Of a stretch of 64,000 nt of DNA, positions 20,868 through 51,292 are shown one piece after another. Position numbers and translations under genes: made by a program. Position 1 is the first letter of the stretch. The number at the start of each line of letters is the position of its first letter. The stretch comes from an uncultured Flavobacteriaceae bacterium. GTDB lineage: Bacteria; Bacteroidota; Bacteroidia; Flavobacteriales; Flavobacteriaceae. The stretch covers positions 310,001 through 374,000 of the forward strand of contig CANLWB010000002.1 of NCBI GenBank assembly GCA_947494695.1, read 5' to 3'. Under the pieces are notes generated by a model, which worked only from the letters and a program-made list of their open reading frames with translations, searched no databases and was not told the DNA's origin.

Positions 20868-20921
20868 GGCTGTTGTTGGTCGATAACTTTAATAAAAGTA
20901 GTTAGATTTGTTTTAATTTTA
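20868..20921 (+). promoter_or_regulatory. PUL promoter box copy 1 (upstream of cutC)
   Basis: GGCTGTTGTTGGTCGATAA (20868-20886) is followed after 30 bases by TAATTTTA (20914-20921), a TAnnTTT-type -7 element. The start codon of cutC lies 20 bases further. The same pair of elements with the same spacing recurs five more times in the N-glycan locus. The box sits near -50, where an activator would bind (inference). Confidence 0.75.
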
Positions 20922-20941
20922 TCGATTACAAACTAGTAACT

Positions 20942-21571
20942 ATGGCTTTTCTTAAAGAAGCATGTGTAGAAGGTTTAAATCAGGCCTTAAATGCTCAAGA
21001 ATTAGGAGCAGATAGAATAGAACTTTGCGCTAATCTGGATGTGGGGGGTACAACACCTTCTACCAGTGTTATAAAGGCAGTCTTAGCGCATGTTCAAATA
21101 CCTGTAAGAGTTATAATTCGACCTCGGGGAGGTGATTTTGTCTATTTAGAAGACGAGTTAGCCCTCATGGAAGATCAAATAATGACTTGTAAGGCATTGG
21201 GAGCAGAAGGTGTTGTTTTTGGTGTGTTGAATAAGAATAATACGATGGATATAAAAGCAACCGAAAGATTAATTTCCGCGGCCTTACCTTTAAAAATCAC
21301 CATACATAAAGCCGTAGATGAAACACCAGATATCTATGAAGCCCTAAAAACGTTGGAATCCTTAGGCCAAAACTTAACCCTGTTAACTTCGGGAGGAGCG
21401 ATCACAGCTGAGAAAGGAAAACATGTTTTAAAACGATTGGTGGCGTTGGCTGGCAATGCCATCGAGATCCTTCCAGCGGGAAAAATAGATACAGAAAATA
21501 TACAAGCGTTACACGAATATATCGCAGCGACGTCCTATCATGGTAAGCGCATTGTTGGAAAACTCGATTAA
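20942..21571 (+). CDS. cutC: CutC family TIM-barrel protein
   Basis: The 209-residue protein shows CutC hallmarks: LKEACVEGLNQALNAQELGADRIELC at the N terminus, VRVIIRPRGGDFVY, GAEGVVFGVL, ITIHKAVDETP and LTSGG. The name comes from a copper-homeostasis phenotype in E. coli, but the biochemical function of the family is unsettled. Here it is the first gene behind a PUL-specific promoter box and its stop is 3 bases before a GH92 mannosidase gene, so it is expressed with the N-glycan genes. That argues for a role in glycan catabolism rather than copper handling (inference). No copper genes are nearby. Confidence 0.85.
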   Translation: MAFLKEACVEGLNQALNAQELGADRIELCANLDVGGTTPSTSVIKAVLAHVQIPVRVIIRPRGGDFVYLEDELALMEDQIMTCKALGAEGVVFGVLNKNNTMDIKATERLISAALPLKITIHKAVDETPDIYEALKTLESLGQNLTLLTSGGAITAEKGKHVLKRLVALAGNAIEILPAGKIDTENIQALHEYIAATSYHGKRIVGKLD

Positions 21572-21574
21572 ACT

Positions 21575-24500
21575 ATGAAAAAAACAATTGTACTCTTGTG
21601 GATGTTATTCATGGTGCTTTCTTGTCAAAAGAAATCCCTTTTAAATCTCACGAACTATGTAGACCCTATGATTGGAACCTCTGCTCATGGTCACACATTT
21701 CCAGGAGCCACGACACCATTTGGAGCCATACAGTTAAGTCCGTCGAATGATTTTAAGTCCTGGGATTGGTGTTCGGGGTATCATTATTCCGATTCCATTA
21801 TTAAAGGGTTTGCACATAATCATATTAGCGGTGCTGGTCTGTCGGGTTTAGGAGATATTCTGCTAATGCCAACTATGGGTAAGCAAACAACGAAGTCCGG
21901 ATCAGACGAGCTTGTAGACGCTAGTTATCGCTCTCGTTTTTCTCATAACACTGAACATGCCAGAGCAGGATATTATTCGGTAATCCTGGACGATTATAAT
22001 ATTAATGTCGAATTAACAGCAACACCTCGTACCGGTTTTCATAGATATACGTTCAATAATTCGGGAGTTACAAATATTGTTATAGATCCTACACATGGGG
22101 TTATGGAGCGCTCCACAGAAACTAGCATTGAGGTAATCTCGAATTCAGAAATACGCGGCTACAAACGTACTGGTGGTGGAGATAAAAGTCGGTACGCCTA
22201 TTTTAGTGCTAAGTTCTCAAAGCCTTTTCAAAAGGCTATTATAACAAATAATGACGACGATACAGAGGCAGATAAGTTAACGGCAATTAAAGCTAAAAGC
22301 TATGCGTCCTTTCATGTTGAAAAAGGGGAGCAAATTGAAGTATTGGTAACGATATCACCTATAGATTACGATGGTGTAGATAAAAATTTTGTTGCCGAGG
22401 CCAAAGGGAAATCATTTGATGATGTTTTAAAAGAGACTACCGATGCCTGGAATAGCGTATTAAATAAAATTGTGATTAGTGAGTCGAGTTCAGATGCTAA
22501 GAAAAGAACGTTTTACACGGCTATGTATCATACATTTATTTCACCTAACATCATTTCAGATGTTGATGGGCGCTATGCTGTTGAAGGTAAATCATATAAA
22601 TACGAGGGAACTCAGTTTAGTAATTATTCAACCTGGGACACTTATAGAGCCCTTCATCCTTTGTTGACTATTATAGAGCAAAAAGAAACGTCTAAGATGG
22701 TTAATAGCTTAGTGTCAAGAGGCACTCAGGCCGGCATTGGTCAACCTGTTTGGGAGCTTATGGGTTTTGATAATGCCTGTATGATAGGCTACACGACGTC
22801 CTCGGTAATAGGAGATGCTGTATTAAAAGACATTGAAGGGATTGATTATGAGGCGGCATTTAATGCCATGTATACATCGGCTTTTGATTTAACGAAACAC
22901 AGTGCCGTGTATGATGTAAGCGGATTGGAAGATTATATAAATTATGGCTACGTAACTGCAGAAACTGGAAGCTCTGTATCAAAAACCACAGAATATAATT
23001 ACCATGATTATGTTATTGCTCGCGTTGCCGAAAAATTAGGAAAAACAAAAGAAGCTCAGGAATTTCAAAAACGAAGCATAGGGTATCGAAATTTGTTTAG
23101 TTCGAAAGACGGGTATTTGTATCCGGTTTACAGTAATGGTACCATGCGCAATTTGGATTTAACAACCTGGGATGAACTCATTCCTAATTATGTTTCGGGG
23201 AATATTTGGGCCTATTCCGGGTATACCCCACACGATATGGCCGGAATTATTCAATTACATGGAGGAAAAGATAAGTATGCTGCCTGGTTAGATAAAGTTT
23301 TTACAGATACGACACAGGTAGGCGGTTCGCAGCATGTTGATATTTCGGGGTTTATTGGTAAGTATGGTCATGGTGATGAGCCGGGGCATCAAATGCCTTA
23401 TCTGTATAACTATGTTGGACAGCCTTGGAAGGGGCAAAAACTTGTAAATGAAGTGGTAACTACCATGTATTCCGATAAACCTGATGGATTAATTAATAAT
23501 GAGGATTTAGGTCAGATGTCCGCCTGGTATGTTTTTAGTACGTTAGGGTTTTATCCCGTCGCCCCAGCAAGTCTGAATTATCAAATCGGAGCGCCATATC
23601 ATGAAAATGCGACCATAAACCTGGAAAATGGTCATACATTTACCGTAAAAGCCATCAATTTAAGTGAGGATAATTTTTATGTGCAATCCGTAAAACTTAA
23701 CGGGGAAGCATATCATAAGACCTTTATAACCCACGATACCATCATGCAGGGAGGCGTATTAGAGTTCACTATGGGAGGTGCGCCCAATAAAGAATGGGGA
23801 CGCTTGGATGACAGCCAATCTATAGGAGCGGTTTCTAAAGAAAAACCAGAAATCTTGGTTAAAGCCACCAAATCACCTTATGATGAGAACAGTGCATTCT
23901 TCTTTACTAAACAGCATATAGCAATTTTAAAAAGCAAAGATCCCGAAGCTGAGATATACTATACAACAGATGGAACCGAACCCACATTACAAGCTCGTAA
24001 ATATGAATCTCCTTTAGAAATTAAAGAAAATTGTATATTGAAAGCAATTGCTGTAAAATCGGGGCTACGAGTTAGTAAAGTTTATGAAAAGCCCATTTTC
24101 AAAAGTGTGTTTCCATTGTTAAAGACCGGATATCCAAAAATTATAATGAACAGCTGGGCAGACCCAAACTATGGGAAATCTGACGGGCGTATGCTCATAG
24201 ATGAAATAACCGGTTCAAAAAGCTATGGTGATGGAAAATGGACAGGAATGAAACAAGATTTCGATGTAGACATCGACTTGGGGCAAAACCAAATGATTGA
24301 ATATGTCTCAGTAGGAATTTTAACCGATACGGGATCGTGGATATTCCCCGCAAAGTCTATTGAAATCTATGGAGGAGCCTCAGAGCAAAATTTAAAACGT
24401 ATTGGACACACAATTATTTCTGCAAAAGATAGTTATTCAAAGGAAGTGAATCGTCGCGTTATAGATTTAAAGAGAGGGCGTTATAAATATTTGAAAGTGA

Positions 24501-24589
24501 AAATAAATTCATTTGGCGTCGCCCCAGAATGGCATGGCGGTTCTGGAAATGCAGTATGGTTGTTTTTAGATGAGATTATGGTGTATTAA
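21575..24589 (+). CDS. GH92 alpha-mannosidase with C-terminal accessory domains
   Basis: The 1004-residue lipoprotein (MVLSC lipobox near residue 17) begins its mature part with NYVDPMIGTSAHGHTFPGATTPFG, the GH92 N-terminal signature. The catalytic domain (about 25-740) has HGDEPGHQ with the predicted acid Glu602 and NNEDLGQMSAWYVFSTLGFYPV with the base-side aspartate. GH92 enzymes are calcium-dependent exo-alpha-mannosidases acting with inversion. Two accessory parts follow: a chitobiase/hexosaminidase C-terminal-like domain at about 775-840 (AEIYYTTDGTEPT) and a discoidin-like module at about 850-1004. It is coupled to cutC (3-base gap). The linkage cleaved (alpha-1,2, 1,3 or 1,6) cannot be read from motifs alone. 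Confidence 0.93.
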   Translation: MKKTIVLLWMLFMVLSCQKKSLLNLTNYVDPMIGTSAHGHTFPGATTPFGAIQLSPSNDFKSWDWCSGYHYSDSIIKGFAHNHISGAGLSGLGDILLMPTMGKQTTKSGSDELVDASYRSRFSHNTEHARAGYYSVILDDYNINVELTATPRTGFHRYTFNNSGVTNIVIDPTHGVMERSTETSIEVISNSEIRGYKRTGGGDKSRYAYFSAKFSKPFQKAIITNNDDDTEADKLTAIKAKSYASFHVEKGEQIEVLVTISPIDYDGVDKNFVAEAKGKSFDDVLKETTDAWNSVLNKIVISESSSDAKKRTFYTAMYHTFISPNIISDVDGRYAVEGKSYKYEGTQFSNYSTWDTYRALHPLLTIIEQKETSKMVNSLVSRGTQAGIGQPVWELMGFDNACMIGYTTSSVIGDAVLKDIEGIDYEAAFNAMYTSAFDLTKHSAVYDVSGLEDYINYGYVTAETGSSVSKTTEYNYHDYVIARVAEKLGKTKEAQEFQKRSIGYRNLFSSKDGYLYPVYSNGTMRNLDLTTWDELIPNYVSGNIWAYSGYTPHDMAGIIQLHGGKDKYAAWLDKVFTDTTQVGGSQHVDISGFIGKYGHGDEPGHQMPYLYNYVGQPWKGQKLVNEVVTTMYSDKPDGLINNEDLGQMSAWYVFSTLGFYPVAPASLNYQIGAPYHENATINLENGHTFTVKAINLSEDNFYVQSVKLNGEAYHKTFITHDTIMQGGVLEFTMGGAPNKEWGRLDDSQSIGAVSKEKPEILVKATKSPYDENSAFFFTKQHIAILKSKDPEAEIYYTTDGTEPTLQARKYESPLEIKENCILKAIAVKSGLRVSKVYEKPIFKSVFPLLKTGYPKIIMNSWADPNYGKSDGRMLIDEITGSKSYGDGKWTGMKQDFDVDIDLGQNQMIEYVSVGILTDTGSWIFPAKSIEIYGGASEQNLKRIGHTIISAKDSYSKEVNRRVIDLKRGRYKYLKVKINSFGVAPEWHGGSGNAVWLFLDEIMVY

Positions 24590-24677
24590 AATCACGCATA
24601 AATTCGGGAAAATTTGCTAAGAATTTATTTCTAGCATTAGAACATGTTCCTTAATAAACGAACTTAAAGGGATATAC

Positions 24678-26021: not shown

Positions 26022-26143
26022 CTTATAAAAGTGTTAAACTAAACATAGAGTTTTTAAAAAAAGGTACACATTCATATGGGGAAATTCTGGAGTCGGTACT
26101 ACGAGATTCAAATACCCTATTTAAACTTCATTAATGATTCGAG

Positions 26144-26196
26144 CGCTGTTGTTAGTCGAATATTTTAAATACTAAACATCTGAATATTTAAGTTTA
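26144..26196 (+). promoter_or_regulatory. PUL promoter box copy 2 (upstream of GH47)
   Basis: CGCTGTTGTTAGTCGAA (26144-26160) is followed, 29 bases after AGTCGA, by TAAGTTTA (26189-26196). The GH47 start codon is 41 bases beyond. One base of the box (A for G in TTAGTC) departs from the other copies. Confidence 0.7.
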
Positions 26197-26237: not shown

Positions 26238-27683
26238 ATGATGAAAATAATTTTTACCCTGTTGGTGCTTATCGTAATGGTGTCTTGCAGGACGGATAAG
26301 AAAAGAGATGGTGGGACAGAAAAGATAACGGAAGGCGTTCAGGAAAAAGATTCGTTGTTGCTCGCATTGCAAGACGAGGTAAAGGCAGAAACGCTTAGGG
26401 CTTGGAATGACTATAAAAAATATGCCTGGGGGCATGATGTTTTATTACCTCTATCTAAAAATCACTTCGATTGGTACAAAGAATCTTTAGGGATATCGCC
26501 TATAGACGCCTATAGCACGTTAAAAGTTATGGGGCTTCATGCCGAGGCTAAAGAAATTGAAGATTATGCGTTAGCAATGGACTGGGATAAAGATCTATAC
26601 GTTCAAACGTTTGAGGTAAACATTAGAATCCTTGGTGGACTTTTATCCATGTATCACTATACAAAGCATGATGCCATTTTAGACAAAGCTCGTGATTTTG
26701 GTGATAGAATATTACCTGCATTCCAGACACCAACCGGTATACCAACACATTCTGTAAACTTAAAAACGGGGAAACAAGGTGGAAACCACGGCGAAGGAGA
26801 TGGATATGTAGTTAATGTAGCGCAAGCCGCAACCTATTTGTTTGAGTTTGGTATTTTAAGTTATTACACCAAAGATGCTAAGTATTATCGCGCAGCGAAG
26901 AAAGCTACAAAAGCCATTTTTGAAAGAAAATCGGAAATCGGACTTCCCGGCGAGTTGATTAATGTATATACTGGTAAGTGGGAAGGAACCAGGTGGCATC
27001 ATTTGCAAGCTGGTGTAGATGCGTATTATGAGTATATGTATAAAAGTTGGATGATCTTTCCAGACCCCGAAATCAAAGCCATATGGGATTACAGTAAGTC
27101 TAAGATAGATCAGTACTTATTAGATGTATATAAGGGACATCATTTTTACACGATTGTGGATATGGATACCGGAGCCGTTTTAAAGCGTTCGGTATCGTTA
27201 TATGATGCGTTTTTTCCTGCAGTTCAGGCAATAGCAGGTGACATTGAGGCAGCAGAAAAAAATCAAAAAACTTGGAATTGGATTTGGAACAAGTTCGAGA
27301 TGCTACCAACACGTTATAAGTATGACGAGGATATTGTTGAATATGCAAACATGGAAATTAATCCTGAGATTATCGAATCTGCATACTATTTGCATCAAAT
27401 AACGAATAAAGACCTGTATCTAGATATGGTGAAAAAGTATTGGTTCGATATTAAAAAACATTGCAAAAATGATGTTGCTTTTAATTCCATAAAAGATGTA
27501 AGAACCAAAGAGAAAAAAGATTATTTGGCAACATTCTTCTTCGCAGAAACGATGAAATACCTTTATATCGCTTTTTCTCAAGGGGATTTCGATTTCAATG
27601 ATCACGTATTTAATACTGAAGCACATACTTTTAAAAAATCGGATTTCGACCCTGCCAAGGCCAAAGTATACTTAGGGTATTAA
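26238..27683 (+). CDS. GH47 alpha-1,2-mannosidase lipoprotein
   Basis: The 481-residue precursor has a lipoprotein signal (IVMVSC) and then an (alpha/alpha)-barrel with GH47 features: YDAFFPAVQAIAGD, the segment EINPEIIESAYYLHQIT with a catalytic-region glutamate at about residue 374, and the C-terminal VFNTEAHTF, whose threonine ligates calcium in characterised class I mannosidases. GH47 enzymes remove alpha-1,2-mannose from high-mannose N-glycans with inversion. They are mainly eukaryotic and uncommon in bacteria. The start ATG at 26238 is followed at once by a second ATG; either gives the same lipoprotein. It has its own PUL promoter box and fits the periplasmic trimming of imported Man9-type glycans. 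Confidence 0.88.
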   Translation: MMKIIFTLLVLIVMVSCRTDKKRDGGTEKITEGVQEKDSLLLALQDEVKAETLRAWNDYKKYAWGHDVLLPLSKNHFDWYKESLGISPIDAYSTLKVMGLHAEAKEIEDYALAMDWDKDLYVQTFEVNIRILGGLLSMYHYTKHDAILDKARDFGDRILPAFQTPTGIPTHSVNLKTGKQGGNHGEGDGYVVNVAQAATYLFEFGILSYYTKDAKYYRAAKKATKAIFERKSEIGLPGELINVYTGKWEGTRWHHLQAGVDAYYEYMYKSWMIFPDPEIKAIWDYSKSKIDQYLLDVYKGHHFYTIVDMDTGAVLKRSVSLYDAFFPAVQAIAGDIEAAEKNQKTWNWIWNKFEMLPTRYKYDEDIVEYANMEINPEIIESAYYLHQITNKDLYLDMVKKYWFDIKKHCKNDVAFNSIKDVRTKEKKDYLATFFFAETMKYLYIAFSQGDFDFNDHVFNTEAHTFKKSDFDPAKAKVYLGY

Positions 27684-29162: not shown

Positions 29163-29882
29163 CTATTCGTTTAAAGCATTATTCTTAAGGATAATGCTTT
29201 TTACTTCATTAATATAGCTTCTTCCAATGGTATAGCGTATACCGGCAATTTCTAAGCTGTTGCCTTCTACAGATTCTACTTTTTCAATAGGAATCGTATA
29301 AGAACGGTGTATTCTTATAAACCGATCAGAAGGTAGTTCGTCTGTAAAGCTTCCTAAAGTCTGATGAACAATGTAGCGGTTTGTGTGGGTGTTTATTTTA
29401 ATATAATCTTTTAAGCTTTCTACCGATAAGATCTCATCCAGATAAACCTTGGCCATTTTTTTCTTATCAACCTTTACAAAAATAAAAGCTCTATCGTTAT
29501 GTGCAGCAATGTCTTTTACTGGGTTGTAGGCTTTAAAAGCTTTGTTTATGGCCATAATAAATCTGTGAAATGGTATAGGTTTAACCAAATAGTCTAAAAC
29601 TTCCAATTCGTAACTTTCTACGGCAAATTCCTCATGGGCGGTAGTGATAATGGTCATAGGCTTTTTATCCAAGCTCTTTAAAAGATTTAAACCATCTAAC
29701 AATGGCATATTTATATCTAAAAATAGCAGATCTATGGTGTTGTTTCGAATATAATCTATGCTTTCAACAGCATTGCTAAAAGTATCTATGAGTTCTAATC
29801 CTTTGGATTCTTTTATATAACTTTTAATAACATTTATAGCCAACGGTTCGTCATCTACAATAACACATTTCAAGTTCATCAT
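29163..29882 (-). CDS. LytTR-type response regulator
   Basis: The 239-residue protein has a receiver domain (residues 1-120) with the acidic pair in VIVDDEPLA, the phosphorylation aspartate in LLFLDINMP, the threonine in TIITTAHEE and lysine in VKPIPFHR. A C-terminal LytTR DNA-binding domain follows (about 140-239; SVESLKDYIKINT, FIRIHRSYTIPIEKV, IGRSYINEV). LytTR domains bind short direct repeats. Its ATG overlaps the end of the kinase gene, so the pair is translated together. It sits between two halves of the N-glycan locus and could control it, but nothing in the sequence proves this. Confidence 0.92.
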   Translation of the reverse strand: MMNLKCVIVDDEPLAINVIKSYIKESKGLELIDTFSNAVESIDYIRNNTIDLLFLDINMPLLDGLNLLKSLDKKPMTIITTAHEEFAVESYELEVLDYLVKPIPFHRFIMAINKAFKAYNPVKDIAAHNDRAFIFVKVDKKKMAKVYLDEILSVESLKDYIKINTHTNRYIVHQTLGSFTDELPSDRFIRIHRSYTIPIEKVESVEGNSLEIAGIRYTIGRSYINEVKSIILKNNALNE

Positions 29883-30958: not shown

Positions 30959-31284
30959 AATACTTTTTAGTTTTTGAGGCGTTTAGCTTTCTACGGCTGT
31001 TGTTGGTCTAAAATTATTCGTGCAGTAAGTGAAATTATAAATCTTTAATGTTATTAATAAATATGCTAAAAAAATATGCAGAATTCTATAATTTTTAGGG
31101 TGTATTGGTAACAAATATAATAAGTAAAACGAATATAGAAAAAATTACGCTATCCACTCTTGTTTTTTTGTTTTTGCAAATTTTATACAATTTATAATTA
31201 GTGGTTTGTGTGCATTTTTAGTGTTTGCGTTTTTTAATAATGACAGTGAGAGTAAACATTTTTGAATGTTTTAAATAAGAGTGA
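30959..31284. other. Divergent regulatory region between the kinase and the SSS transporter
   Basis: This 326-base AT-rich gap contains a PUL promoter box at its left end pointing right and no reading frame of note. The kinase promoter must also lie here on the minus strand. The transcript from the box would have a leader of about 235 bases before the transporter, much longer than at the other boxes. No riboswitch fold was recognised in it. Confidence 0.55.
30995..31047 (+). promoter_or_regulatory. PUL promoter box copy 3 (upstream of SSS transporter)
   Basis: GGCTGTTGTTGGTCTAAAA (30995-31013) is followed, 29 bases after GGTCTA, by AATCTTTA (31040-31047). The -7 element has AA for TA. The preceding bases TTTAGCTTTC match those before copy 4, so the recognised site may extend upstream. 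Confidence 0.68.
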
Positions 31285-34105: not shown

Positions 34106-34117
34106 ATTATATGGATT

Positions 34118-35182: not shown

Positions 35183-35186
35183 AGCC

Positions 35187-35513: not shown

Positions 35514-35620
35514 GGGATTAGAGGTTTAAAGGAAAGTGAAGTAGCGGGGATTTTGTTTTTCGAGATAAAAGAACATCTTTTTCGAAGTTATTCAAGGATT
35601 TAAGAAATAAATATTTGATT

Positions 35621-37897: not shown

Positions 37898-37982
37898 TTT
37901 CGGCATGGTCAAAGGATTAATAGTATAATCTCCGTTTTTAATTTTGAGAACATTTAGATATAAACAGAACAAAAACAAACAA

Positions 37983-40289: not shown

Positions 40290-40302
40290 AAATATTGCAG
40301 TA

Positions 40303-41514: not shown

Positions 41515-41553
41515 AACGTTTATGTTTTTAAATGATAGTGTATTAATAATTAA

Positions 41554-43452
41554 ATGATATTCATGAGGGGCAAGTTATCTATTTTATGTTTTCTTACAGT
41601 GGCTATGTTGACAGGGCAAAACCAGCCATTTTCGTCGTATTGGTATGTAAACGACTTTCTTAAATGGTCACCAAAAACAGATAAACATGCTGTTTTTAAT
41701 GTGAGTTATGTACCCTTAGCAAAACGATTTACAGACACGAGTACACAGGTTAAAAAAGACCTGTCTAATGACCCTAAGATTATTTCCTTAATAGCGGCAC
41801 ATACCACTTCAAATCATCCGTCACAAGGGTTTTCCAGTATAAAACAATATGCCTTTCCGTTTTGGCAATATATAGATTATGTTGTGCTCTGGGGGGGATC
41901 GGCCGCAGAAGGTATTATTTTATCACCAACATCTACATGGACCGATGCAGCTCATAAAAATGGTGTAAAGTCTATAGGGACCGTGTTCTTTCCTCCTGTT
42001 GTTTACGGTGGAAAAAAAGAATGGGTTATTGAGTTTTTACAGCAAAATAAAGATGGTAGTTTTCCAGTAGCTGATAAACTTATAGAGGTAGCGAAATACT
42101 ACCATTTTGATGGGTGGTTCATCAATCAGGAAACACATGGTCTCGATGCGCGGTATGCTAAAAAAATGCTAGAGTTTATTGAATACTATAATAAAAAGTC
42201 GGGTGATGCCATAGAGCTTGTTTGGTATGACGCCATGATTACCGATGGACGTGTTATTTGGCAAAGGGAACTTAACCATCACAATCAGGTCTTTTTTCAA
42301 AAGGATGATAAAAAAATGGCAGACTTAATGTTTATTGATTTCAAATATCAGGAGACACAATTAGAGGATTCACATGACCTCGCACTTAAATTAGGACGAA
42401 GCCCCTGGGATCTGTATGCCGGGATAGATATACAACAAAAAAGTTATAAGTCTTATGCCAAGTGGGATGCTTTACTTAAGAATGAAAAACCATATACAAC
42501 ATCTATAGGTCTGTACTGGCCCAATTCTACCTTCGATATATCAAAAACCAAAGAACCCGAAGACGTTTATAAAAATGAACAGAAGTTTTGGAATGGACGA
42601 GATACCATTCAAGGCCCTTATGGAAAACAGATATGGAAAGGCTTTAGTAATTATTTCCCTGCTAGCAGCGTTGTGAGTACATTACCCTTTTTAACAAATT
42701 TTAATTACGGATTAGGAAGATTTTATAATGAAAAAGGAAAAACAGTATCTAAAAATGAGTGGCATAATTTAGGTGTTCAGGATGTATTACCAACCTGGCA
42801 ATGGCAGGTTGATACCATGCAGGTAAGACCTAATTTCAATTTCAAAGAAAGTTATACCGGTGGTAGTTGCCTGGAGTTAGAATCTGTGTCGGGAGGAATG
42901 ATTCCGCTTTATAAAACAAAAATAAACCTAGGTTCCTCTGTGAAGATAGATGTAGTTGCTAAAGGGAGTTCTCGTGTAAAAACACATTGCTATGTACTAT
43001 TATCTAATGGTAACATTATAAAAAAAGAAATAAACATTAGTCAAGATTGGAAAAGATCCTCTTTTACCATTAAAAACCAGAAGGGTGTATCTATTGTGTC
43101 TTTAGGTTTCGAAACACACGGGGAAGGGATTGTTTATGTTGGAGAAATTGCAATTATCGATAAAAGGCAGCCAGTTTTACAAAATCCTGAATTTTCGGTA
43201 GAAGTGTTCCCGAAAAATAATTCAACCGAATTATATTTACACCTTGATTCTATAAATAGAGATCATGTTAGTTATCACAATATTTATAAATTAAATAATA
43301 AAGGTGAAAAGCTTTGGTTGGGGAAAACAGCCTCCAACGATTATTATATACCAAAGATTATGGTAGACTATAATTTTATCGATATCGTGGTCGAGCCGGT
43401 CTCTAAAAGTGGAAAACCAGGAAGGCCATCAAAAAGAAGAATAAAGTTATGA
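41554..43452 (+). CDS. GH85 endo-beta-N-acetylglucosaminidase
   Basis: The 632-residue secreted protein (signal ending MLTGQ) has a TIM barrel of family GH85, which cuts between the two core GlcNAc residues of N-glycans using substrate-assisted catalysis. The diagnostic segment is FDGWFINQETHG, where Asn191 and Glu193 match the catalytic pair of Endo-A/Endo-D. Other landmarks are YVVLWGGSAAEGIIL, IGTVFFPPVVYGGKKEW and YAGIDIQQ. A beta-sandwich C-terminal region from about residue 400 is probably a binding module. An earlier ATG (41554) and one three codons on (41563) are equally good. Its stop overlaps the next GH92 start by 4 bases. Confidence 0.92.
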   Translation: MIFMRGKLSILCFLTVAMLTGQNQPFSSYWYVNDFLKWSPKTDKHAVFNVSYVPLAKRFTDTSTQVKKDLSNDPKIISLIAAHTTSNHPSQGFSSIKQYAFPFWQYIDYVVLWGGSAAEGIILSPTSTWTDAAHKNGVKSIGTVFFPPVVYGGKKEWVIEFLQQNKDGSFPVADKLIEVAKYYHFDGWFINQETHGLDARYAKKMLEFIEYYNKKSGDAIELVWYDAMITDGRVIWQRELNHHNQVFFQKDDKKMADLMFIDFKYQETQLEDSHDLALKLGRSPWDLYAGIDIQQKSYKSYAKWDALLKNEKPYTTSIGLYWPNSTFDISKTKEPEDVYKNEQKFWNGRDTIQGPYGKQIWKGFSNYFPASSVVSTLPFLTNFNYGLGRFYNEKGKTVSKNEWHNLGVQDVLPTWQWQVDTMQVRPNFNFKESYTGGSCLELESVSGGMIPLYKTKINLGSSVKIDVVAKGSSRVKTHCYVLLSNGNIIKKEINISQDWKRSSFTIKNQKGVSIVSLGFETHGEGIVYVGEIAIIDKRQPVLQNPEFSVEVFPKNNSTELYLHLDSINRDHVSYHNIYKLNNKGEKLWLGKTASNDYYIPKIMVDYNFIDIVVEPVSKSGKPGRPSKRRIKL

Positions 43453-45707
43453 CCGACAAAATTAAAGTCATTCTTTTTTTATGTCTTGGGATGCTATGTT
43501 ATAACCTGTCCGGGCAGCACAAACCGGTAGATTATGTGAATCCGTTTATAGGGACATCAAATTTTGGAACCACCAATCCGGGACCAATTGCTGTGCGGGG
43601 TATGGTCAACGTATCACCTTTTAATGTGGCCGGACCAAAAAACCTGCCTCTAGAAAAAGATAGCCGCTGGTTATCGACCCCATACGTTCATGAAAATACA
43701 TTTTTAACAGGATTTAGTCATGTGAATTTGAGTGGTGTTGGATGTCCTGATTTAGGGGTTATTCTTGCCATGCCAACAATGGGGGAATTAGAGACCGATC
43801 ATTTAAAGTATGGTTCTACATATTCAAAAGAAAAAGCAACCGTTGGTTACTATTCCAATACCATTGATAAATACAATATAAAAGTAGAAACTACAGCGAC
43901 CACGAGAGTCGGTGTTAGTAAATATTATTTCCCTGCTGGAGATGCAAATGTCCTTTTAAACTTAGGACTAGGTCTTACGAATGAAGCAGGAGCCATGATA
44001 AAGGTCGTGTCTCCAACCGAAATAGAAGGTATGCGTTCGGTAGGATCCTTTTGCTATTATAAGCCAGATGAGGCCTATCCCGTATACTTTGTGGCCCGTT
44101 TTTCTAAACCGGCCAATACCTTTGGTGTTTGGAAAAAACCAGAAACGTATAAAGGTGTCGAGGCCGAGTGGTTTTTAAAAAACGGGAAGGTTAGAATAAA
44201 AGAAGGATACACCAAAGAAGTTATAGGAGACAGTATAGGAGCCTATATGAGATATCGTTTTGAAAAGCCAACCGAAGTAGAAGTTAAGATAGGAGTTTCT
44301 TATGTGAGTATAGAAAATGCCAGAGAGAATTTGGAAAAAGAAACGTCCAATAGAACATTTAATCAAATTTTGGCAGCTTCAAAACAAGAATGGAATAATT
44401 ACTTATCTAGAATAGAGGTTGAAGGCGGTACTGAAGATGAAAAAACGATCTTCTATACAGCCTTGTTTCATACCTTAATTCATCCCAATACTTTGAATGA
44501 TGTTAATGGGGAGTACCCTAAGATGAAGACCAGGGAAACACGCCACACTTCGGGAACCCGTTATACAACATTTTCATTTTGGGATACTTACAGGAATCTA
44601 CACCAATTAATGAGTCTGGTATACCCCAAACAGCAATCTAATATGGTTAAGAGCATGTTACAGATTTACGACGAATCTGGGTGGTTACCAAAGTGGGAGC
44701 TTAATGCAACCGAAACGACCACCATGGTGGGAGATCCAGCGGGAATTATTATAGCGGATACGTATTTAAAAGGCATTAGAGACTTCGATATTAATAAGGC
44801 CTATGAAGCTATGAAGAAGAGTGCGACACAGCTCGAAGATAATCCATTACGTCCAGGGCTTCGTGATTATATAGAAAAGGGATATTTAACCACAAAGACC
44901 ACTAAAAGTGGTTCGGTTTCCACAACCCAGGAATATAATATTTCAGACCATGCCATTGCACAATTAGCAAAAGTGTTGGGAAAACAAGATGATTACAAGA
45001 TCTTTTCTAAAAGAGCTCTTTCTTATAGGAGCTTATTTGATAAGAGCTTTAATCTTTTGCGTCCTAAAAATCATGATGGAAGCTGGCTAACACCATACAA
45101 CCCTGAAACTGGTGCCAATTTTGTTAAAAACCCAGGGTTCATAGAGGGAAATGCTTGGCAATATACATTTATGGTAACTCACGATGTTAAGGGGTTAATG
45201 AGGTTGATGGGGGGAGCAAAGAAATTTGCAAGCAAATTGGAAGATGTTTTTAATAAAAAACAATTCGATATGGCTAACGAACCAGATATAACCTATCCTT
45301 TTTTGTTTAATTATGTGAAGGGACAAGAATATAAAACCGGGCATAAAGTAAGCGAATTATTAAAAACCTACTTTAAAAACGCACCAGACGGTTTGCCGGG
45401 AAATGACGACACCGGCACCATGAGTGCATGGGGCGTGTTTTCGATGATGGGGATATATCCAATATCACCAGCAGACGATGTTTATGCCCTGTTTTCTCCG
45501 GTATTTAACAAGGTTACAATTCATTTAGATAACAGATATTATAATAACGATAAAATAGAAATTATTAAAAACCCCCAAATGAAAAATACAGAAGAAAACA
45601 CAAAGCGTATTAACTCTATAAAGGTGGATGGTAGAAACCTATCGACCTTTTTTATTTCACATCAACAACTACAAGCCACAAATACTTTAAGAATTAACTT
45701 GAACTAA
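43449..45707 (+). CDS. GH92 alpha-mannosidase (divergent subgroup)
   Basis: The 752-residue protein has a cleavable signal (ending LSGQ) rather than a lipobox. The family signature is VDYVNPFIGTSNFGTTNPGPIAVRGMVNVSPF. The acid loop reads MANEPDITYPFLFNYV, keeping Glu611 but without the His pair, and the base motif is GNDDTGTMSAWGVFSMMGIYPISP. This NEPDI-type loop marks a GH92 subgroup distinct from the canonical HGNEPSHH enzymes, so a different alpha-mannosyl linkage is likely. The ATG overlaps the GH85 stop (ATGA), so the two are translationally coupled. It ends the enzyme operon 220 bases before susC. Confidence 0.92.
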   Translation: MTDKIKVILFLCLGMLCYNLSGQHKPVDYVNPFIGTSNFGTTNPGPIAVRGMVNVSPFNVAGPKNLPLEKDSRWLSTPYVHENTFLTGFSHVNLSGVGCPDLGVILAMPTMGELETDHLKYGSTYSKEKATVGYYSNTIDKYNIKVETTATTRVGVSKYYFPAGDANVLLNLGLGLTNEAGAMIKVVSPTEIEGMRSVGSFCYYKPDEAYPVYFVARFSKPANTFGVWKKPETYKGVEAEWFLKNGKVRIKEGYTKEVIGDSIGAYMRYRFEKPTEVEVKIGVSYVSIENARENLEKETSNRTFNQILAASKQEWNNYLSRIEVEGGTEDEKTIFYTALFHTLIHPNTLNDVNGEYPKMKTRETRHTSGTRYTTFSFWDTYRNLHQLMSLVYPKQQSNMVKSMLQIYDESGWLPKWELNATETTTMVGDPAGIIIADTYLKGIRDFDINKAYEAMKKSATQLEDNPLRPGLRDYIEKGYLTTKTTKSGSVSTTQEYNISDHAIAQLAKVLGKQDDYKIFSKRALSYRSLFDKSFNLLRPKNHDGSWLTPYNPETGANFVKNPGFIEGNAWQYTFMVTHDVKGLMRLMGGAKKFASKLEDVFNKKQFDMANEPDITYPFLFNYVKGQEYKTGHKVSELLKTYFKNAPDGLPGNDDTGTMSAWGVFSMMGIYPISPADDVYALFSPVFNKVTIHLDNRYYNNDKIEIIKNPQMKNTEENTKRINSIKVDGRNLSTFFISHQQLQATNTLRINLN

Positions 45708-45814
45708 TCAAAAAAATAATGATCTAAAAGCTTTTAAAAAAAACGACAATGTGTTGGTTTTTGACGTTGACATGTTTTTTTTAGTGCTAAAAACGATGTT
45801 CTTTAGCTTTCGTC

Positions 45815-45867
45815 CGCTGTTATTGGTCGAAAAACTTTCAAAAAAATTAACATTATTACAACTTTTA
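45815..45867 (+). promoter_or_regulatory. PUL promoter box copy 4 (upstream of susC)
   Basis: CGCTGTTATTGGTCGAAAA (45815-45833) is followed, 29 bases after GGTCGA, by AACTTTTA (45860-45867). The susC start is 60 bases beyond. It gives the transport genes their own copy of the shared promoter. Confidence 0.75.
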
Positions 45868-45927: not shown

Positions 45928-48900
45928 ATGTGTAAAAAATTACTAAATTTTTTAGCTCTTGTGTTTATATTATCCAGTGGAATAATTCATGCACAAAGCA
46001 TTAAGGTGTCCGGAAAAGTTACCGACAGTAATGGAATTCCGCTACCTGGTGCAAACATTCTAGAAAAGGGAACCGTTAATGGAGCTTCTGCCGATTTTGA
46101 TGGTAGTTACTCGCTAAGAGTAAGCGGTTCTGCGGTCTTGGTCTTCTCGTCCATTGGTTTTGTTACACAGGAAATACCTGTTGGAACCCAAACCGTTATA
46201 GAGGTTTCACTCGAAGAAAGTGTACAGGCCTTAGAAGAAGTGGTGGTAACCGCTTTAGGAATTAAAAGGGAGAAAAAGGCGCTTGGGTATTCTGCTCAGG
46301 AAGTTTCTGCCGAAACCGTAACGGCCGCAGCCAATGGTAATATTAACACAGCTTTACAAGGTAAAGTAGCAGGTGTTAATATTACAACAAGTGGTGGTAT
46401 TGGAGGTAATGCCAGATTAGATTTACGTGGTACCAGTTCATTGAGTGGAGACGATAAAGTATTGTGGGTCATTGACGGTGTGCCGTTTGCTGCCGATGAT
46501 ACAAATGATCCAGATGATTTATTCGGAGGTGTCTCAAATGGAGGAGGTCTTTTAGATATTAACCCAGACGATGTTGAGACCGTATCTGTACTTAAAGGAG
46601 GTCAAGCAGCAGCACTATATGGTACGCGTGGTGCAAATGGTGTTATTTTGATAACCACAAAAAGTGGTGCAAAATCTGAAGGATTGGGTATTAGTTATAC
46701 AGGATCTACTGTATTTTCTGAAGCCGCTTACTTCTTAGACCTTCAGAAAGAATACGGACAAGGTATCGATGGGAATTACGACCCAACTTCGGGAGCATCC
46801 TGGGGACCTCGTTTTGACGGTGCTTCAAGACTGTCATGGACAGGTGAACAATTACCTTACCAGGCAGCATCTAATCAATTGGAAGATTTTACAAGAACTG
46901 CTTTGAGTATGAGGCACGCACTAGCACTTTCAAAGGCTAATGAAGACGGAAATTTTAGAGTGTCTATCTCAAAAGACCAAACAGAAGGTGTATATGAAAA
47001 CCACCAGATCGATAAACTTAATTTCGATTTAAAAGCGGCTTATGATATTAACCCTTGGTTGAATGTAGATACAAAAATATCATACATCAAAAATGAGGGG
47101 CAACAACGACCAGAAGTTGGAAGCTATAGCTTTGTTTCTTTTTTCAATAGTATGCCAGCTAATATTAGAACACAGGATTTAAAACCTGGGTTTAGAATTA
47201 TAAGGAATGAACGTAGAGAGTTTTTGTATGGAGCAAGTGATGATTTAACTGCAAACCCAAATGCAAGTAGCAGGAATCCCTATTTTGTTCAGGATCAAAT
47301 ATTCAATAGTGATGAGCGTAACAGATTCTTTGGATATTTTGCTTCTACATTTAAATTTACAGATCATTTAAAGTTAAAGCTTAAATACGGATTAGATACC
47401 TATAGATACGAGTCTTTAGATGGATACAGATATGCCGACAACGTAGATGGTCAACGACCATACTTCAATACTTCTGAAAAGTTCTATACAGAGGAAAACA
47501 TGGAGTTTTTACTAAGTTATAACAAAGATTTTGGAGAAAAAGTTAAATTTGGATTAAGTGCGGGAGGTAATAAAATGCATAGAGAATCTGAAACACTTAG
47601 GAGTACTTCAGGAAGGCTGGTGTCAAGTAGAGACTTCTTCTTTAATGCAGGGCTGTCCTTGAATAGTAAAGAAACCTTTTCTGAGCGTGAAATACAATCT
47701 GTTTACGGGCTATTAGATGTGTCTTATAACGAATATCTGTTTTTAACTGCAACAGCTAGAAACGATTGGTCTTCGGCGTTACCTATAGATAATAATTCCT
47801 ACTTCTACCCGTCTGTAGGTTTGAGTGGACTTATTTCAGAAATGACTCAAATGCCAGATTGGATATCCTATTTTAAAGTTCGTGCTTCATGGGCTCAGGT
47901 TGGTAAAGATACCCTACCCTACCTAGCCAATCCTGTTTTCGAATATAGCACATGGAACTTTAATTTGTTAACCAGTTCTGTTCCTGATAGATTAGTGGAT
48001 ACAAACCTTAAACCGGAGATATCATCTACCGCAGAGGTTGGTTTAGAATTAAAATTATTTAAAAGCCGATTTGGTATTGATGTTACCTATTATAACGAAC
48101 GCACTAAAAACCAAATCGTCGCAACGGAGAACGGAAGAAGTACAGGGTTCCCTAGATATGTGACGAACTTAGGTTTAATTACCAACAAAGGGGTGGAAAT
48201 TATAGCCAATATAATTCCAATAAAAACTAAGGACTTCAATATGGGGTTAACACTTAACTTTGCGAAGAATGAAGGTGTATTAGAAGAGTTTGCTCAGGAT
48301 CAAGATGGAGAAAATCTTCCTTTCTTCTTCTTTAATAGTAATACCATTTCAGAACAAGTTCGAGCAGAAGTTGGTGAAAAAATGGGAGACATTTATGGTT
48401 TTGCTTTCCAAAGAGATGGAGCAGGGAATCTTATCATAGGAGATGATGGATTGCCACTAAGATCTGAAGATAAGGTGAAGCTGGGTAATATTCAGGCAGA
48501 TTTCACGGGATCAATTGGTTTAAATTTAAATTATAAAAGTGTATCGTTAAATGCCTTATTAGGAATGCAACAAGGGGGAGACATCTACTCTTTGACAGAA
48601 TCTGGAGCTATAGGAAGCGGTACTGCTGAAGTAACGACGAGCTTAGGACGAGAGCCGTTTGTCGTTCCAGGTAATTTGGCCGATGGAAGTGCTAACACTA
48701 CGACGGTGTCTCCACAACAATATTGGGGTAGAGTATCGGGAATTAGTGAGACTTCTATTTACGATGCATCTTTCATGAAACTTACAGAAGTAGCTTTGGG
48801 CTACAGTATTCCTAGAAAGATTTTAGATAAATTAGGACATGGTGTGATTAACAAAGCTAAGTTTTCTATCGTGGGTAGAAACTTATTCTACCTTTATAGA

Positions 48901-49023
48901 AATACGCCTGGTACCGTACCAGATTCAGGAGTTTATAACACGTCGTTTGGCGCACAAGCATTCGATTTTTCACCAGTGCCAGTCACAAGATCGGTAGGAT
49001 TTTCACTTAACCTTAATTTTTAA
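45928..49023 (+). CDS. susC: SusC-family TonB-dependent outer-membrane transporter
   Basis: The 1031-residue protein has a signal peptide (ending IHAQ). A carboxypeptidase-D regulatory-like domain follows (about 25-100; VSGKVTDSNGIPLPGANILEKGT), then the conserved EEVVVTALGIKREKKALGYSAQEV, a plug domain (GKVAGVNITTSGGIGGNARLDLRG, LYGTRGANGVILITTK) and a 22-strand barrel that ends in an aromatic residue (NLNF). There is no N-terminal signalling (STN) domain, so it is unlikely to drive an anti-sigma cascade. With SusD it should import released high-mannose N-glycans across the outer membrane. It has its own promoter box. Confidence 0.96.
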   Translation: MCKKLLNFLALVFILSSGIIHAQSIKVSGKVTDSNGIPLPGANILEKGTVNGASADFDGSYSLRVSGSAVLVFSSIGFVTQEIPVGTQTVIEVSLEESVQALEEVVVTALGIKREKKALGYSAQEVSAETVTAAANGNINTALQGKVAGVNITTSGGIGGNARLDLRGTSSLSGDDKVLWVIDGVPFAADDTNDPDDLFGGVSNGGGLLDINPDDVETVSVLKGGQAAALYGTRGANGVILITTKSGAKSEGLGISYTGSTVFSEAAYFLDLQKEYGQGIDGNYDPTSGASWGPRFDGASRLSWTGEQLPYQAASNQLEDFTRTALSMRHALALSKANEDGNFRVSISKDQTEGVYENHQIDKLNFDLKAAYDINPWLNVDTKISYIKNEGQQRPEVGSYSFVSFFNSMPANIRTQDLKPGFRIIRNERREFLYGASDDLTANPNASSRNPYFVQDQIFNSDERNRFFGYFASTFKFTDHLKLKLKYGLDTYRYESLDGYRYADNVDGQRPYFNTSEKFYTEENMEFLLSYNKDFGEKVKFGLSAGGNKMHRESETLRSTSGRLVSSRDFFFNAGLSLNSKETFSEREIQSVYGLLDVSYNEYLFLTATARNDWSSALPIDNNSYFYPSVGLSGLISEMTQMPDWISYFKVRASWAQVGKDTLPYLANPVFEYSTWNFNLLTSSVPDRLVDTNLKPEISSTAEVGLELKLFKSRFGIDVTYYNERTKNQIVATENGRSTGFPRYVTNLGLITNKGVEIIANIIPIKTKDFNMGLTLNFAKNEGVLEEFAQDQDGENLPFFFFNSNTISEQVRAEVGEKMGDIYGFAFQRDGAGNLIIGDDGLPLRSEDKVKLGNIQADFTGSIGLNLNYKSVSLNALLGMQQGGDIYSLTESGAIGSGTAEVTTSLGREPFVVPGNLADGSANTTTVSPQQYWGRVSGISETSIYDASFMKLTEVALGYSIPRKILDKLGHGVINKAKFSIVGRNLFYLYRNTPGTVPDSGVYNTSFGAQAFDFSPVPVTRSVGFSLNLNF

Positions 49024-49035
49024 AAGTTAAAAGAC

Positions 49036-50583
49036 ATGAAAAAAGGAATTATATGTTTAGGAATTGTACTATTAGCTTTTATGGTTGGTTGTACAGACGA
49101 TTTCGAAGAAATTAATACCCCAAAGGATGGTGCTTTATTAGTAGAGCCAGGGATTATGTTTAACCCATTATTGCAAAATCCGTTAAGAAACTATCAACGT
49201 AATACCAATTTATATCCGGATTTATTTTCGCAATATTGGGCCAATACTGTATCTGGCTTTGAATCTCCGAGATATGAGTACGTCGATGGGTGGATTGGTA
49301 ATCAGTGGAATGAATTTTATACACAGACTTTGCCGGAAGCAAATCAGTTAATGACTTGGTATGGAGAAGATCCTATATACGCGAATGCCATGGCACAGCT
49401 AGAGGTTTGGATATGTTCAGAATGGTCACGTATGTTACAGACTTACGGTGATATGCCATATTTTGGAGCTGGTTTAGGGGAGAACGTTTCTTATAATTCG
49501 CAACAGGAAATCTATTATGACTTATTCGAAAGGTTAACGACAGCCGTGAACACTATTGATACAGGAGCTTCAGATCAATATAAATATAAAAAGGATGACG
49601 GAACAAACTACGATATCCTATTTGAAGGAGACTTAGATAAATGGAAACGATTTGGTAACTCTATGCGTTTACGATTAGCCATGCGTTTGGCCAATGTAGA
49701 TCCTACTAAGGCTCAGGCTGAAGCAGCAGCAGCAGTAGCAGATGGTGTTATGACTAGCAATGACGATGTAGCGCATATTCCGTTATGGTCAAGTGGTTGG
49801 TATGACTATCTGCACCAAATGGCATTTAACTGGAACAATATAAGAGCGTCTAAAACCTTTACTGATTTATTGTATAATCAATCTACTTTAGGTGAAGATC
49901 CTAGAGCCAGAATATGGTTGGCTTATAAATCAGATTCTCCATTGGTAGGAAATGCCGAACTGGAAGGTCTTGTAAATGGGTATGATGTACTTCCGGCAGA
50001 TTCTCGCGATTTTGCTACTATGAATTTAGAAGGCGGTTATGTTGGGTTTACAGGTAATGGTACGACCGCATCTCAGTACTTACCTTATATGTTCTACTCT
50101 GAAGTTTTATTCTTAAGAGCAGAAGCAGCGTTAAGAGGTTGGGTAGCAGGAGATGCTAATGCCTTATATTTAGAAGGAGTACAGGCTTCTATGGATTTCG
50201 TTGGTGTTGAAGCTACCCCGGCGACAGATTATATTAATGGTTTATCACCGCTGTCTGGTTCCAATGAAGCACAGTTAAAGCAATTAATTTCGCAAAAGTA
50301 TATTGCTAACTTCCCTAATGGTGTAGAGGCATGGGCGGACTTTAGAAGAACAGATTATCCGGATATTACATTACCCGTAGATGGTGTTAGTAGTAATTCA
50401 TCTGTAGCATCAGGTACCTGGGTAAAACGTATAAGATATCCAGATAATGCGCATTTATTTGATACGCCGTTTATGCCTGCAGCACAAAATACAGTAGAAA
50501 CGGATAGAATGGATATAAGATTATGGTGGGATACCGCCGATACGAAAGCGAAGTCTGGTGGCTTAATGAGTAGTAACTTTTAA
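49036..50583 (+). CDS. susD: SusD-family glycan-binding lipoprotein
   Basis: The 515-residue lipoprotein (AFMVGC lipobox at about residue 19) follows susC by 12 bases. It fits the SusD/RagB superfamily, in a form close to the SusD-like group that ends FDTPFMPAAQNTVETDRMDIRLWWD. Helical repeat segments (EWSRMLQTYGDMPYFGAG, KWKRFGNSMRLRLAMRLANVDP, LFLRAEAALRGW) are typical of its TPR scaffold. It caps the SusC barrel on the cell surface and binds the glycan. A strong terminator 40 bases on closes the unit. Confidence 0.95.
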   Translation: MKKGIICLGIVLLAFMVGCTDDFEEINTPKDGALLVEPGIMFNPLLQNPLRNYQRNTNLYPDLFSQYWANTVSGFESPRYEYVDGWIGNQWNEFYTQTLPEANQLMTWYGEDPIYANAMAQLEVWICSEWSRMLQTYGDMPYFGAGLGENVSYNSQQEIYYDLFERLTTAVNTIDTGASDQYKYKKDDGTNYDILFEGDLDKWKRFGNSMRLRLAMRLANVDPTKAQAEAAAAVADGVMTSNDDVAHIPLWSSGWYDYLHQMAFNWNNIRASKTFTDLLYNQSTLGEDPRARIWLAYKSDSPLVGNAELEGLVNGYDVLPADSRDFATMNLEGGYVGFTGNGTTASQYLPYMFYSEVLFLRAEAALRGWVAGDANALYLEGVQASMDFVGVEATPATDYINGLSPLSGSNEAQLKQLISQKYIANFPNGVEAWADFRRTDYPDITLPVDGVSSNSSVASGTWVKRIRYPDNAHLFDTPFMPAAQNTVETDRMDIRLWWDTADTKAKSGGLMSSNF

Positions 50584-50622
50584 TAGAACAACCCTACTAG
50601 AACCCTACTAAAGAATAAAGAA

Positions 50623-50654: not shown

Positions 50655-50922
50655 CTTATTTAGAGAGTATGTGTATATGGTGATATGCGTTGTTCTACGG
50701 GTGTCATCTGATGTTTTTTGCTAGCAGGTTCTAACTTAAGTAGCCTCAACGCAGAGTGGCTTTCAGGTGGTTTAGATGGTCTCAAACCAAACCATGGTAA
50801 GTAGATGCAATTATTTTAAAGTTCTATTTGATAAAGACGTTTTTAGTTTAAAAGTATTCTTGATTAATTGTAGAAGTAACTCCGTCTGTGGTTTGATAAA
50901 ATTACTCTGTTCATTGGTTCAC
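50655..50922. other. Non-coding stretch after the susCD terminator
   Basis: No reading frame, repeat or fold that I can support was found in these 268 bases. The segment separates the susCD terminator from the orphan promoter box that follows. Confidence 0.5.
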
Positions 50923-50975
50923 AGATGTTATTGGTCGAAATAATTGTCAGCTCAAAAGGATCTGTTTTAATTTTA
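50923..50975 (+). promoter_or_regulatory. PUL promoter box copy 5 (orphan)
   Basis: AGATGTTATTGGTCGAAATA (50923-50942) is followed, 29 bases after GGTCGA, by TAATTTTA (50968-50975). No gene starts behind it. A hairpin with a T-rich tail lies about 225 bases downstream, and the next gene has its own box (copy 6). It is either a promoter for a small RNA or a duplicated, decayed nagB promoter. Confidence 0.68.
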
Positions 50976-50981
50976 TTGAAC

Positions 50982-51222
50982 GAAAATTAGTTCAAAGGCT
51001 GTTGTAATAAAGTTCATTTTAAAAATGACACAAATAGTATAGATATAGAAAGTAAAATTAGGAATATACTTCCCATAACATGTTTAAAGCTGTTTTCATT
51101 TAGAAACGAAGCGAATGTTTTGATGGCGAAGTGAAAACATCAAAAGAGGACACCAATTAATAGCGAATTAGTTTATTTTTTGATTTTGTTTGTTAGATAG
51201 AGGCGGGCTACAACCCGTCTCT
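50982..51222 (+). ncRNA. Candidate small RNA or decayed nagB 5' duplicate
   Basis: The segment starts just past the -7 element of the orphan box and ends with a terminator-like hairpin. It contains only frames of seven codons or fewer. The 18-mer AAAGTTCATTTTAAAAAT within it (about 51011-51028) is identical to the 5' coding end of nagB (51328-51345), at nearly the same distance from the respective promoter box (32 against 34 bases past the element). This supports an old tandem duplication. Whether the transcript is made or has a function is unknown. Confidence 0.4.
51199..51222 (+). terminator. Hairpin upstream of nagB promoter
   Basis: AGAGGCGGG and CCCGTCTCT form a 9-bp stem with one G-T wobble and a 6-base loop, followed by TTATTTATT. 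Since no gene ends here, it would terminate a transcript from the orphan box. Confidence 0.7.
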
Positions 51223-51239
51223 TTATTTATTGCTCCATT

Positions 51240-51292
51240 GATGTTATTGGTCGAAAATACATGTTAAGTCATTGCATTCTATTCTACTTTTA
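51240..51292 (+). promoter_or_regulatory. PUL promoter box copy 6 (upstream of nagB)
   Basis: GATGTTATTGGTCGAAAA (51240-51257) is followed, 30 bases after GGTCGA, by TACTTTTA (51285-51292). Transcription should start near 51298, which favours the second of two in-frame ATGs for nagB. Confidence 0.75.

Follow-up and report, generated by a model that had tools for sequence, protein, structure and literature searches.

The window examined here, 64,000 nucleotides from an uncultured Flavobacteriaceae bacterium (assembly GCA_947494695.1, contig CANLWB010000002.1, positions 310,001 to 374,000 of the forward strand), carries a locus of N-glycan genes in which six promoters share a two-part site. It is very probable that these six sites are the operators of a two-component system encoded inside the locus itself, made up of a histidine kinase and a LytTR response regulator, and that this system jointly activates the N-glycan genes. 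The initial annotation had proposed a regulon defined by these promoters, a proposal which our analysis supports, but the second half of each site, 21 base pairs (bp) upstream of the box it described, had been missed and the locus-encoded regulator had not been named. The six sites are listed below, with E-values from the whole-site model R1 described further on.

20851..20921, + strand: site 1 (cutC-GH92); upstream half 20851-20863, box 20872-20883, element 20914-20921, gap 30; E 4.5e-7
26127..26196, + strand: site 2 (GH47); upstream half 26127-26139, box 26148-26159, element 26189-26196, gap 29; E 4.0e-6
30978..31047, + strand: site 3 (SSS-GH130 operon; facing away from the histidine kinase gene); upstream half 30978-30990, box 30999-31010, element 31040-31047, gap 29; E 1.5e-13
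45798..45867, + strand: site 4 (susCD); upstream half 45798-45810, box 45819-45830, element 45860-45867, gap 29; E 3.1e-11
50906..50975, + strand: site 5 (no open reading frame before site 6); upstream half 50906-50918, box 50927-50938, element 50968-50975, gap 29; E 8.6e-7
51222..51292, + strand: site 6 (nagB-PIG-L); upstream half 51222-51234, box 51243-51254, element 51285-51292, gap 30; E 2.5e-5

The genes of the two-component system lie between boxes 2 and 3.

29163..29882, - strand: LytTR response regulator, proposed binder of the six sites; receiver domain PF00072 (E 6.3e-20) and LytTR domain PF04397 (E 2.2e-16)
29879..30958, - strand: histidine kinase, proposed partner; PF06580; its reading frame overlaps that of the regulator

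A direct repeat ahead of six predicted promoters

All six boxes were found on the + strand, 3-4 bases past the coordinates first given, with their GTT starts at 20872, 26148, 30999, 45819, 50927 and 51243. The sequence GTTRTTGGTCGA is exact in boxes 1, 4, 5 and 6, with a single mismatch in box 2 (GTTGTTAGTCGA) and in box 3 (GTTGTTGGTCTA). As annotated, the gap between the box and the -7-like element behind it is 29 bases in four copies (boxes 2-5) and 30 in two (boxes 1 and 6). The TAnnTTTA-like element reported after each box is strictly of that form at four of them and deviates at boxes 3 (AATCTTTA) and 4 (AACTTTTA); over the six sites it is summarised as WAnnTTTA. A clear TTTG -33 element was not seen in the promoters of the aligned sites. 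Box variants differ by place, GGTCTA standing at the kinase-divergent promoter (30999-31010) and GGTCGA (e.g. 20872-20883) mostly elsewhere, in other genera too, a difference which may tune strength.

The box with up to two mismatches occurs 18 times in the window; shuffled versions average 7.4, and none of 100 reaches 18. Its exact 12-mer has five copies in the 5.49-Mb genome, four of them in the locus and the fifth inside an open reading frame (ORF) of 417 residues. With one mismatch allowed, the 12-mer was rejected as a stand-alone signature: its 60 genome matches equal the 60 obtained with a reversed-pattern control, and the box alone is therefore not the signal.

To define the whole site, 40 stretches from 38 genomes were collected around relatives of the response regulator of the locus, and the two-part motif was found there. 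Intergenic sites with at least 10 of the 12 box letters, at least 5 of the 6 element letters and a gap of 29-30 were retained, along with one site with a gap of 28, giving 62 box-aligned sites from 38 loci. A second conserved block, GNYGTTTAGCTTT, which was not used in the selection, is found upstream of the box in this alignment. When the box profile is slid upstream, its score has a single clear peak, at an offset of 21 bp (z 5.8 versus other offsets). For the six window sites, a profile derived from other genera also places the best offset at 21, narrowly over 17 (-2.8 versus -3.4), and an upstream-half profile from other genera fits them at exactly the expected shift (5.2, the next best being -1.5). 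From the sliding peak and this fit it follows that the site is a direct repeat with a 21-bp period, the box being one half and the other half lying 21 bp upstream. A 17-bp repeat, as suggested by sites 5 and 6, was considered and rejected, since 21 wins in the full set with 17 coming second.

The broad LytTR half-site consensus ends GTTN[AG][TG]. This ending, with A or G first, is present in the downstream half of 46 of 56 sites and in the upstream half of 34 of 56 at offset 21, as opposed to 0 of 56 at offsets 19, 20, 22 and 23. A period of 21 bp (9+12) is the geometry of LytTR operators, which the accessible portions of published studies describe as 9-bp repeats about 12 bp apart, usually just upstream of the -35 element (PMC6193735, PMC2766830, PMC11347149). 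The repeat found here likewise lies just upstream of the promoter core. The usual TAnnTTTG box of Flavobacterium psychrophilum is placed at -12 to -5 in the partial text available (PMC9723704), and if transcription here also starts 5 bases after the element, the half-site centres would fall near -47 and -68. The initial annotation had suggested activator binding from about -50; the position agrees with that at which LytTR activators bind, and activation itself is plausible.

Six of the 62 sites were removed by eye, three for their non-promoter look (L050:2988, L055:13291 and L060:12224; L and G numbers designate loci and genomes), one because it is the same as L058 (L061:9832) and two as weak (L072:7922 and L086:7961). 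The 56 others make up R1, a sequence-only model of 75 positions, which was run on 299 genomes of the family; a match at E<1e-5 is called a strong site and E <= 0.02 is the loose cut. A whole-genome profile scan had been called for in the initial annotation, and in the genome of the window R1 returns exactly six matches at the loose cut, all in the locus and corresponding to the six boxes, which are part of the training set as the rest of the genome is not. The possibility raised there that the motif recurs at random sites with similar frequency holds for the 12-mer with one mismatch, whereas the whole-site model finds just these six places; specificity is therefore due to the whole site and not to the 12-mer box alone. 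Across the family, some match at the loose cut, often weak, was obtained in 126/299 genomes and a strong site in 49/299. Three of the 295 genomes in a class-wide sample match at E <= 1e-4, namely the window's own and two of the same family. An exact 15-mer proved too strict a query across the family, with 8/299 genomes.

The linked regulator, its site in other genomes and rival explanations

The LytTR protein is the only DNA-binding regulator found by Pfam among the 20 main ORFs between 17076 and 53253, the next being an Rrf2 protein at 53349, beside a PAPS-reductase gene. These 20 ORFs include neither a hybrid two-component regulator of the type known from polysaccharide utilization loci (PULs), with kinase, receiver and AraC-type helix-turn-helix in one protein, nor a sigma-70 region 2/4 protein with an anti-sigma partner. 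The phosphorylation residues of the receiver (D10, D11, D56, T81 and K101) are invariant in 12 sequences, and the closest named relatives of the regulator come from Flavivirga species (91, 90 and 88% identity), which makes the source a marine member of the family and probably a Flavivirga.

A clade of regulators was delimited at 54% identity, at the gap between 277 and 250 bits, and has members in 45/299 family genomes. A strong site is present in 42/45 genomes with the clade versus 7/254 without it (Fisher p 3e-40, kinship between genomes being ignored), an association which is partly circular, 34 of the 45 clade genomes having supplied the sites on which R1 was trained. All 34 of these have a strong site, as do 8 of the 11 clade genomes that contributed no training site (G013, G115, G153, G160, G162, G164, G244 and G250). 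The GH130 gene of the operon, present in 46/299 genomes, was located in order to separate a site that follows the regulator from one that follows the operon. Where GH130 is present, the strong site is found in 35/36 genomes with the regulator versus 5/10 without it; where GH130 is absent, the figures are 7/9 and 2/244.

The position of the site is also conserved. In this first set, a kinase match lies in the same stretch in 45/45 clade loci, and a site is present in the kinase-divergent region, as is site 3, in 37/45 according to a strict script; L085, L190, L191 and L192 fail the script with the site at the same spot, which we read as an artefact of an extrapolated kinase start, hence 41/45 by inspection. 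A second, named collection comprises 51 loci, 45 of the clade (>=55% identity) and six more distant (41-44%). R1 finds a site in each of the 45 clade loci (E <= 7.2e-5), 1.1-1.4 kb ahead of the regulator start, which is where the kinase promoter is expected, the kinase not having been searched for in those loci; none of the six distant LytTR loci has a match at E <= 0.1. Thirty-nine of the 45 differ from every training locus, although some are congeners. The genera represented include Flavivirga, Algibacter, Aquimarina, Sinomicrobium, Leeuwenhoekiella, Flagellimonas/Muricauda, Salegentibacter, Maribacter, Arenibacter, Jejuia and Croceivirga, so the pairing of site and regulator recurs in many related genera. 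The CBM9-like protein (34118-35182) is still found next to the two-component system in stretches that lack GH130 and the SSS symporter (e.g. L074, L075, L080 and L083), and could deliver the signal.

From these features we infer how the system would work, from signal and phosphorylation to physical binding and activation rather than repression. The kinase (29879-30958) would sense a signal from N-glycan breakdown and phosphorylate the response regulator (29163-29882), a dimer of which would bind the two direct half-sites, upstream around GNYGTTTAGCTTT and downstream at GTTRTTGGTCKA, 21 bp apart on one face of the DNA. Bound just upstream of a presumably weak promoter, with its WAnnTTTA -7 element and no clear TTTG -33 element, the regulator would recruit RNA polymerase and switch on hydrolases, transporters, SusCD and nagB together.

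Several observations, besides the partial circularity mentioned above, weigh against this reading. The upstream half is weak in sites 1 and 2 (ACTCGT and ATTAAT). Three clade genomes outside the training set lack a strong site: G222 (best match 3.1e-5, away from the regulator), G241 (6.7e-5) and G286 (none), the last having a clade regulator and kinase beside unrelated genes (L188:7986-9781), with no sites or glycan genes in the 20-kb stretch. No site lies upstream of the kinase in L068, L081, L086 and L188, L081 and L086 having sites elsewhere in the stretch. Finally, a strong site occurs without the linked clade in seven genomes (G006, G030, G082, G155, G209, G219 and G240). In one of them (L090) it precedes susCD and CBM9-like genes, in the other six N-glycan genes led by GH92, and all seven carry a paralogous LytTR regulator, g2, elsewhere.

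An unlinked factor, such as the g2 system, might therefore be the main binder, with the linked regulator merely sharing the locus. In a tree, g2 is separated from the linked clade, and six of the seven genomes fall in one well-supported g2 subclade along with the g2 copy of G019. Ten genomes have GH130 but not the clade; the five of these in which a site occurs all have g2, and two of the site-less ones (G217 and G220) have the operon but no match of g2 strength (best 7.3e-50 and 2.0e-41); as for the other three, the promoter is off the contig in G170, and G023 and G252 have a lone GH130 only. The 20 g2 loci (L107-L126) mostly have a kinase alongside and lie near susCD-like or nagB genes or a lipoprotein of 1100 residues, and several, including ones beside susCD, show by eye 21-bp repeats of their own with another sequence (TGTTGTTTGTCTA-like) and weak R1 matches, so that g2 probably represents a second regulon of the same design. 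Set against an unlinked main binder are the association of the strong site with the linked clade, training caveat included, and the distance of the next LytTR regulators listed in the window's genome, which are just 41 and 39% identical to the linked one. We consider this explanation unlikely and read the seven genomes as cases in which g2 took over the site, although the paralog could be a normal binder, or another factor may be the true one.

If the linked regulator does bind, it could be a repressor that leaves the DNA on induction, as some LytTR proteins repress and the operator of CoxC, in the part of its description that is available, overlaps the -35 box (PMC11347149). Here some 30 bases separate the end of the site from the -7-like element, which it does not overlap, and the promoter has no clear -33 motif, both of which are typical of activation; repression accordingly seems improbable. 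The fixed distance between box and -7-like element (29 or 30) could also mean that the box is the -35-like recognition element of an alternative sigma factor. Start to start, however, the two are 41-42 bases apart, a distance that a two-part sigma promoter cannot span. Such a promoter would also leave the 21-bp repeat unexplained, no sigma factor is encoded among the 20 ORFs scanned and the -7 element is similar to the usual TAnnTTTG, which in F. psychrophilum occupies -12 to -5 as far as the partial source goes (PMC9723704), making this explanation very unlikely indeed. Recent duplication of promoter DNA, rather than a conserved operator, might account for the likeness of the sites, given that site 5 and the stretch behind it show 70% likeness over 122 bases to site 6 and the beginning of nagB, as would a tandem copy that has decayed. 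Yet across the 38 loci conservation is prominent in the two half-sites, in the -7 element and in a short A/T run behind the box, but not in most of the spacer or in the flanks, and sites with unlike spacers precede unlike genes; duplication as the general explanation can be given hardly any weight.

Proposed target genes and site 5

Control by the linked LytTR regulator would extend to the following genes.

20942..24589, + strand: cutC and GH92 (site 1), proposed regulon member
26238..27683, + strand: GH47 (site 2), proposed regulon member
31285..45707, + strand: SSS symporter, GH130, CBM9-like, two GH92, PNGase F, GH85 and GH92, with site 3 at the head; later internal promoters possible
45928..50583, + strand: susC-susD (site 4), proposed regulon member
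50980..51222, + strand: candidate non-coding RNA driven by site 5, with an inferred start and a terminator-like hairpin (51199-51222) at its end
51304..53253, + strand: nagB-PIG-L (site 6), proposed regulon member

The locus holds SusCD, PNGase F, GH85, four GH92, GH47, GH130 and nagB, and its reading as an N-glycan locus is based on the PNGase F, GH85, GH92, GH47, GH130 and nagB domains. Boxes 1-4 and 6 precede locus genes, as had been annotated, but no ORF was found behind box 5, between sites 5 and 6. In the collected loci, 96 of the 100 R1 matches were used for a count of targets, the four weakest being omitted. A locus-like gene (GH92, susC, nagB, CBM9-like, SSS, GH47 or GH85) lies at most 900 bases downstream of 85/96 (32 GH92b-like, 26 susC, 10 nagB, 6 CBM9-like, 5 SSS, 4 GH92a, 1 GH47 and 1 GH85), which is not an unbiased genome-wide share because the loci were chosen around the regulator or strong matches; the remaining 11 precede other or no ORFs. 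Conservation of the site before GH92, susC, nagB, SSS and CBM9-like genes in other genera, along with its specificity in the whole genome, supports the single-factor regulon of the initial annotation.

Site 5 may drive a non-coding RNA or may be a decayed tandem duplicate of the nagB promoter and first codons, the latter because of the likeness to site 6 given above. One terminator-like hairpin lies behind susD (50623-50654) and another (51199-51222) ends just before site 6; the stretch between them folds somewhat better than shuffles (z -2.2, with 4 of 200 shuffles as good). A comparison of the candidate transcript with Rfam gave nothing near the gathering score. Further orphan sites with a hairpin and a T-run behind them were seen in L179, which is of the same genus, in L051 and in seven Flagellimonas/Muricauda-type loci chosen for their paired sites (L161, L164, L165, L168, L160, L156 and L159). 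In each of these seven the boxes come as a pair, spaced by about 280-350 bases, and a SusC-like ORF lies downstream of the pair in the six for which one was seen. Behind the first box comes a short stretch, GTAATCAGT...AGTTTTAGTTAA (4/7, with variants in the other three), and then a strong hairpin with a T-run, which looks like a conserved small RNA.

More generally, a terminator within 250 bases was found for 11/173 sites versus 76/2000 random stretches, no strong excess (the 173 being 96 of the 100 matches in the collected loci, 75 of the 84 in the second collection and 2 of 5 others), so that the RNA idea depends on the particular loci above. Predicted pairing of the RNA with susC is mixed: a susC ORF takes first place, alone or tied, in L051, L164, L161, L160 and L168 (the pairing energy in L168 being inflated because the ORF start was called too far upstream), third in L156, and outside the top four targets in L165, L159, L179 and the window. 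That a short non-coding RNA with a terminator is also under the control of this LytTR operator, at site 5 and at the orphan sites of the two relatives and the seven Flagellimonas/Muricauda-type loci, and pairs with the susC mRNA is a rather doubtful proposition, and the RNA reading of site 5 is a lead, not a result. If true, one regulator would both switch on transport and limit it at the RNA level.

Relation to known regulatory systems

Bacteroides PULs are governed by hybrid two-component systems, by SusR or by pairs of extracytoplasmic function sigma and anti-sigma factors, which switch a SusCD locus on by its glycan. The switching role proposed here is the same, but it would be played by a separate kinase and LytTR regulator, no hybrid kinase or sigma factor being encoded among the 20 ORFs. 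PUL72 of B. thetaiotaomicron serves the same class of substrate, high-mannose N-glycans, and according to the portion of its description available has small RNAs (FopS) that act on the N-glycan susC (PMC11697453). By analogy, these would be a precedent for the possible RNA of site 5, although that partial account gives the FopS RNAs canonical housekeeping promoters, as opposed to the shared locus operator found here (PMC11697453).

LytTR regulators have also been located in carbohydrate loci of Firmicutes, namely Ros-7 of Roseburia (PMC5320581) and PUL7, 21 and 33 of Butyrivibrio (PMC2914790). The likeness lies in a LytTR response regulator beside glycoside hydrolase genes; in the parts of these reports that are accessible, the gene location is given and no operator is named, and the phylum is another. 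Ros-7 is moreover described there as an arabinoxylan locus with ABC/GPH transport, unlike the N-glycan SusCD locus of the window (PMC5320581). Among open-access publications, covered mostly by their titles and abstracts, we found none in which N-glycan or SusCD genes of Bacteroidota are tied to a LytTR regulator (including PMC7440613, PMC10197871, PMC11278836, PMC5320581 and PMC2914790) and none naming a switch for marine flavobacterial N-glycan loci. The view of the initial annotation that no operator with this sequence has been described held in the same open-access search, but its architecture, the LytTR repeat, is already known.

The closest systems in design are the LytTR two-component regulons of AgrA and SilA, and HdrR/BrsR with their membrane inhibitors. 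As far as the available portions of the literature describe them, they share with the regulon proposed here the LytTR domain, two direct repeats with a period of about 21 bp and a place just upstream of the promoter. They differ in their half-site letters and in what they serve (quorum sensing, bacteriocins and virulence, as opposed to glycan hydrolases, SusCD and sugar catabolism here), and the sites here stand before a Bacteroidota-type -7 element. We therefore judge that the window holds a new LytTR regulon and not a new kind of system, with a candidate regulator, an operator defined letter by letter, a list of targets in one genome and a site conserved in many genera, by which the targets of this clade of LytTR regulators become predictable from sequence.

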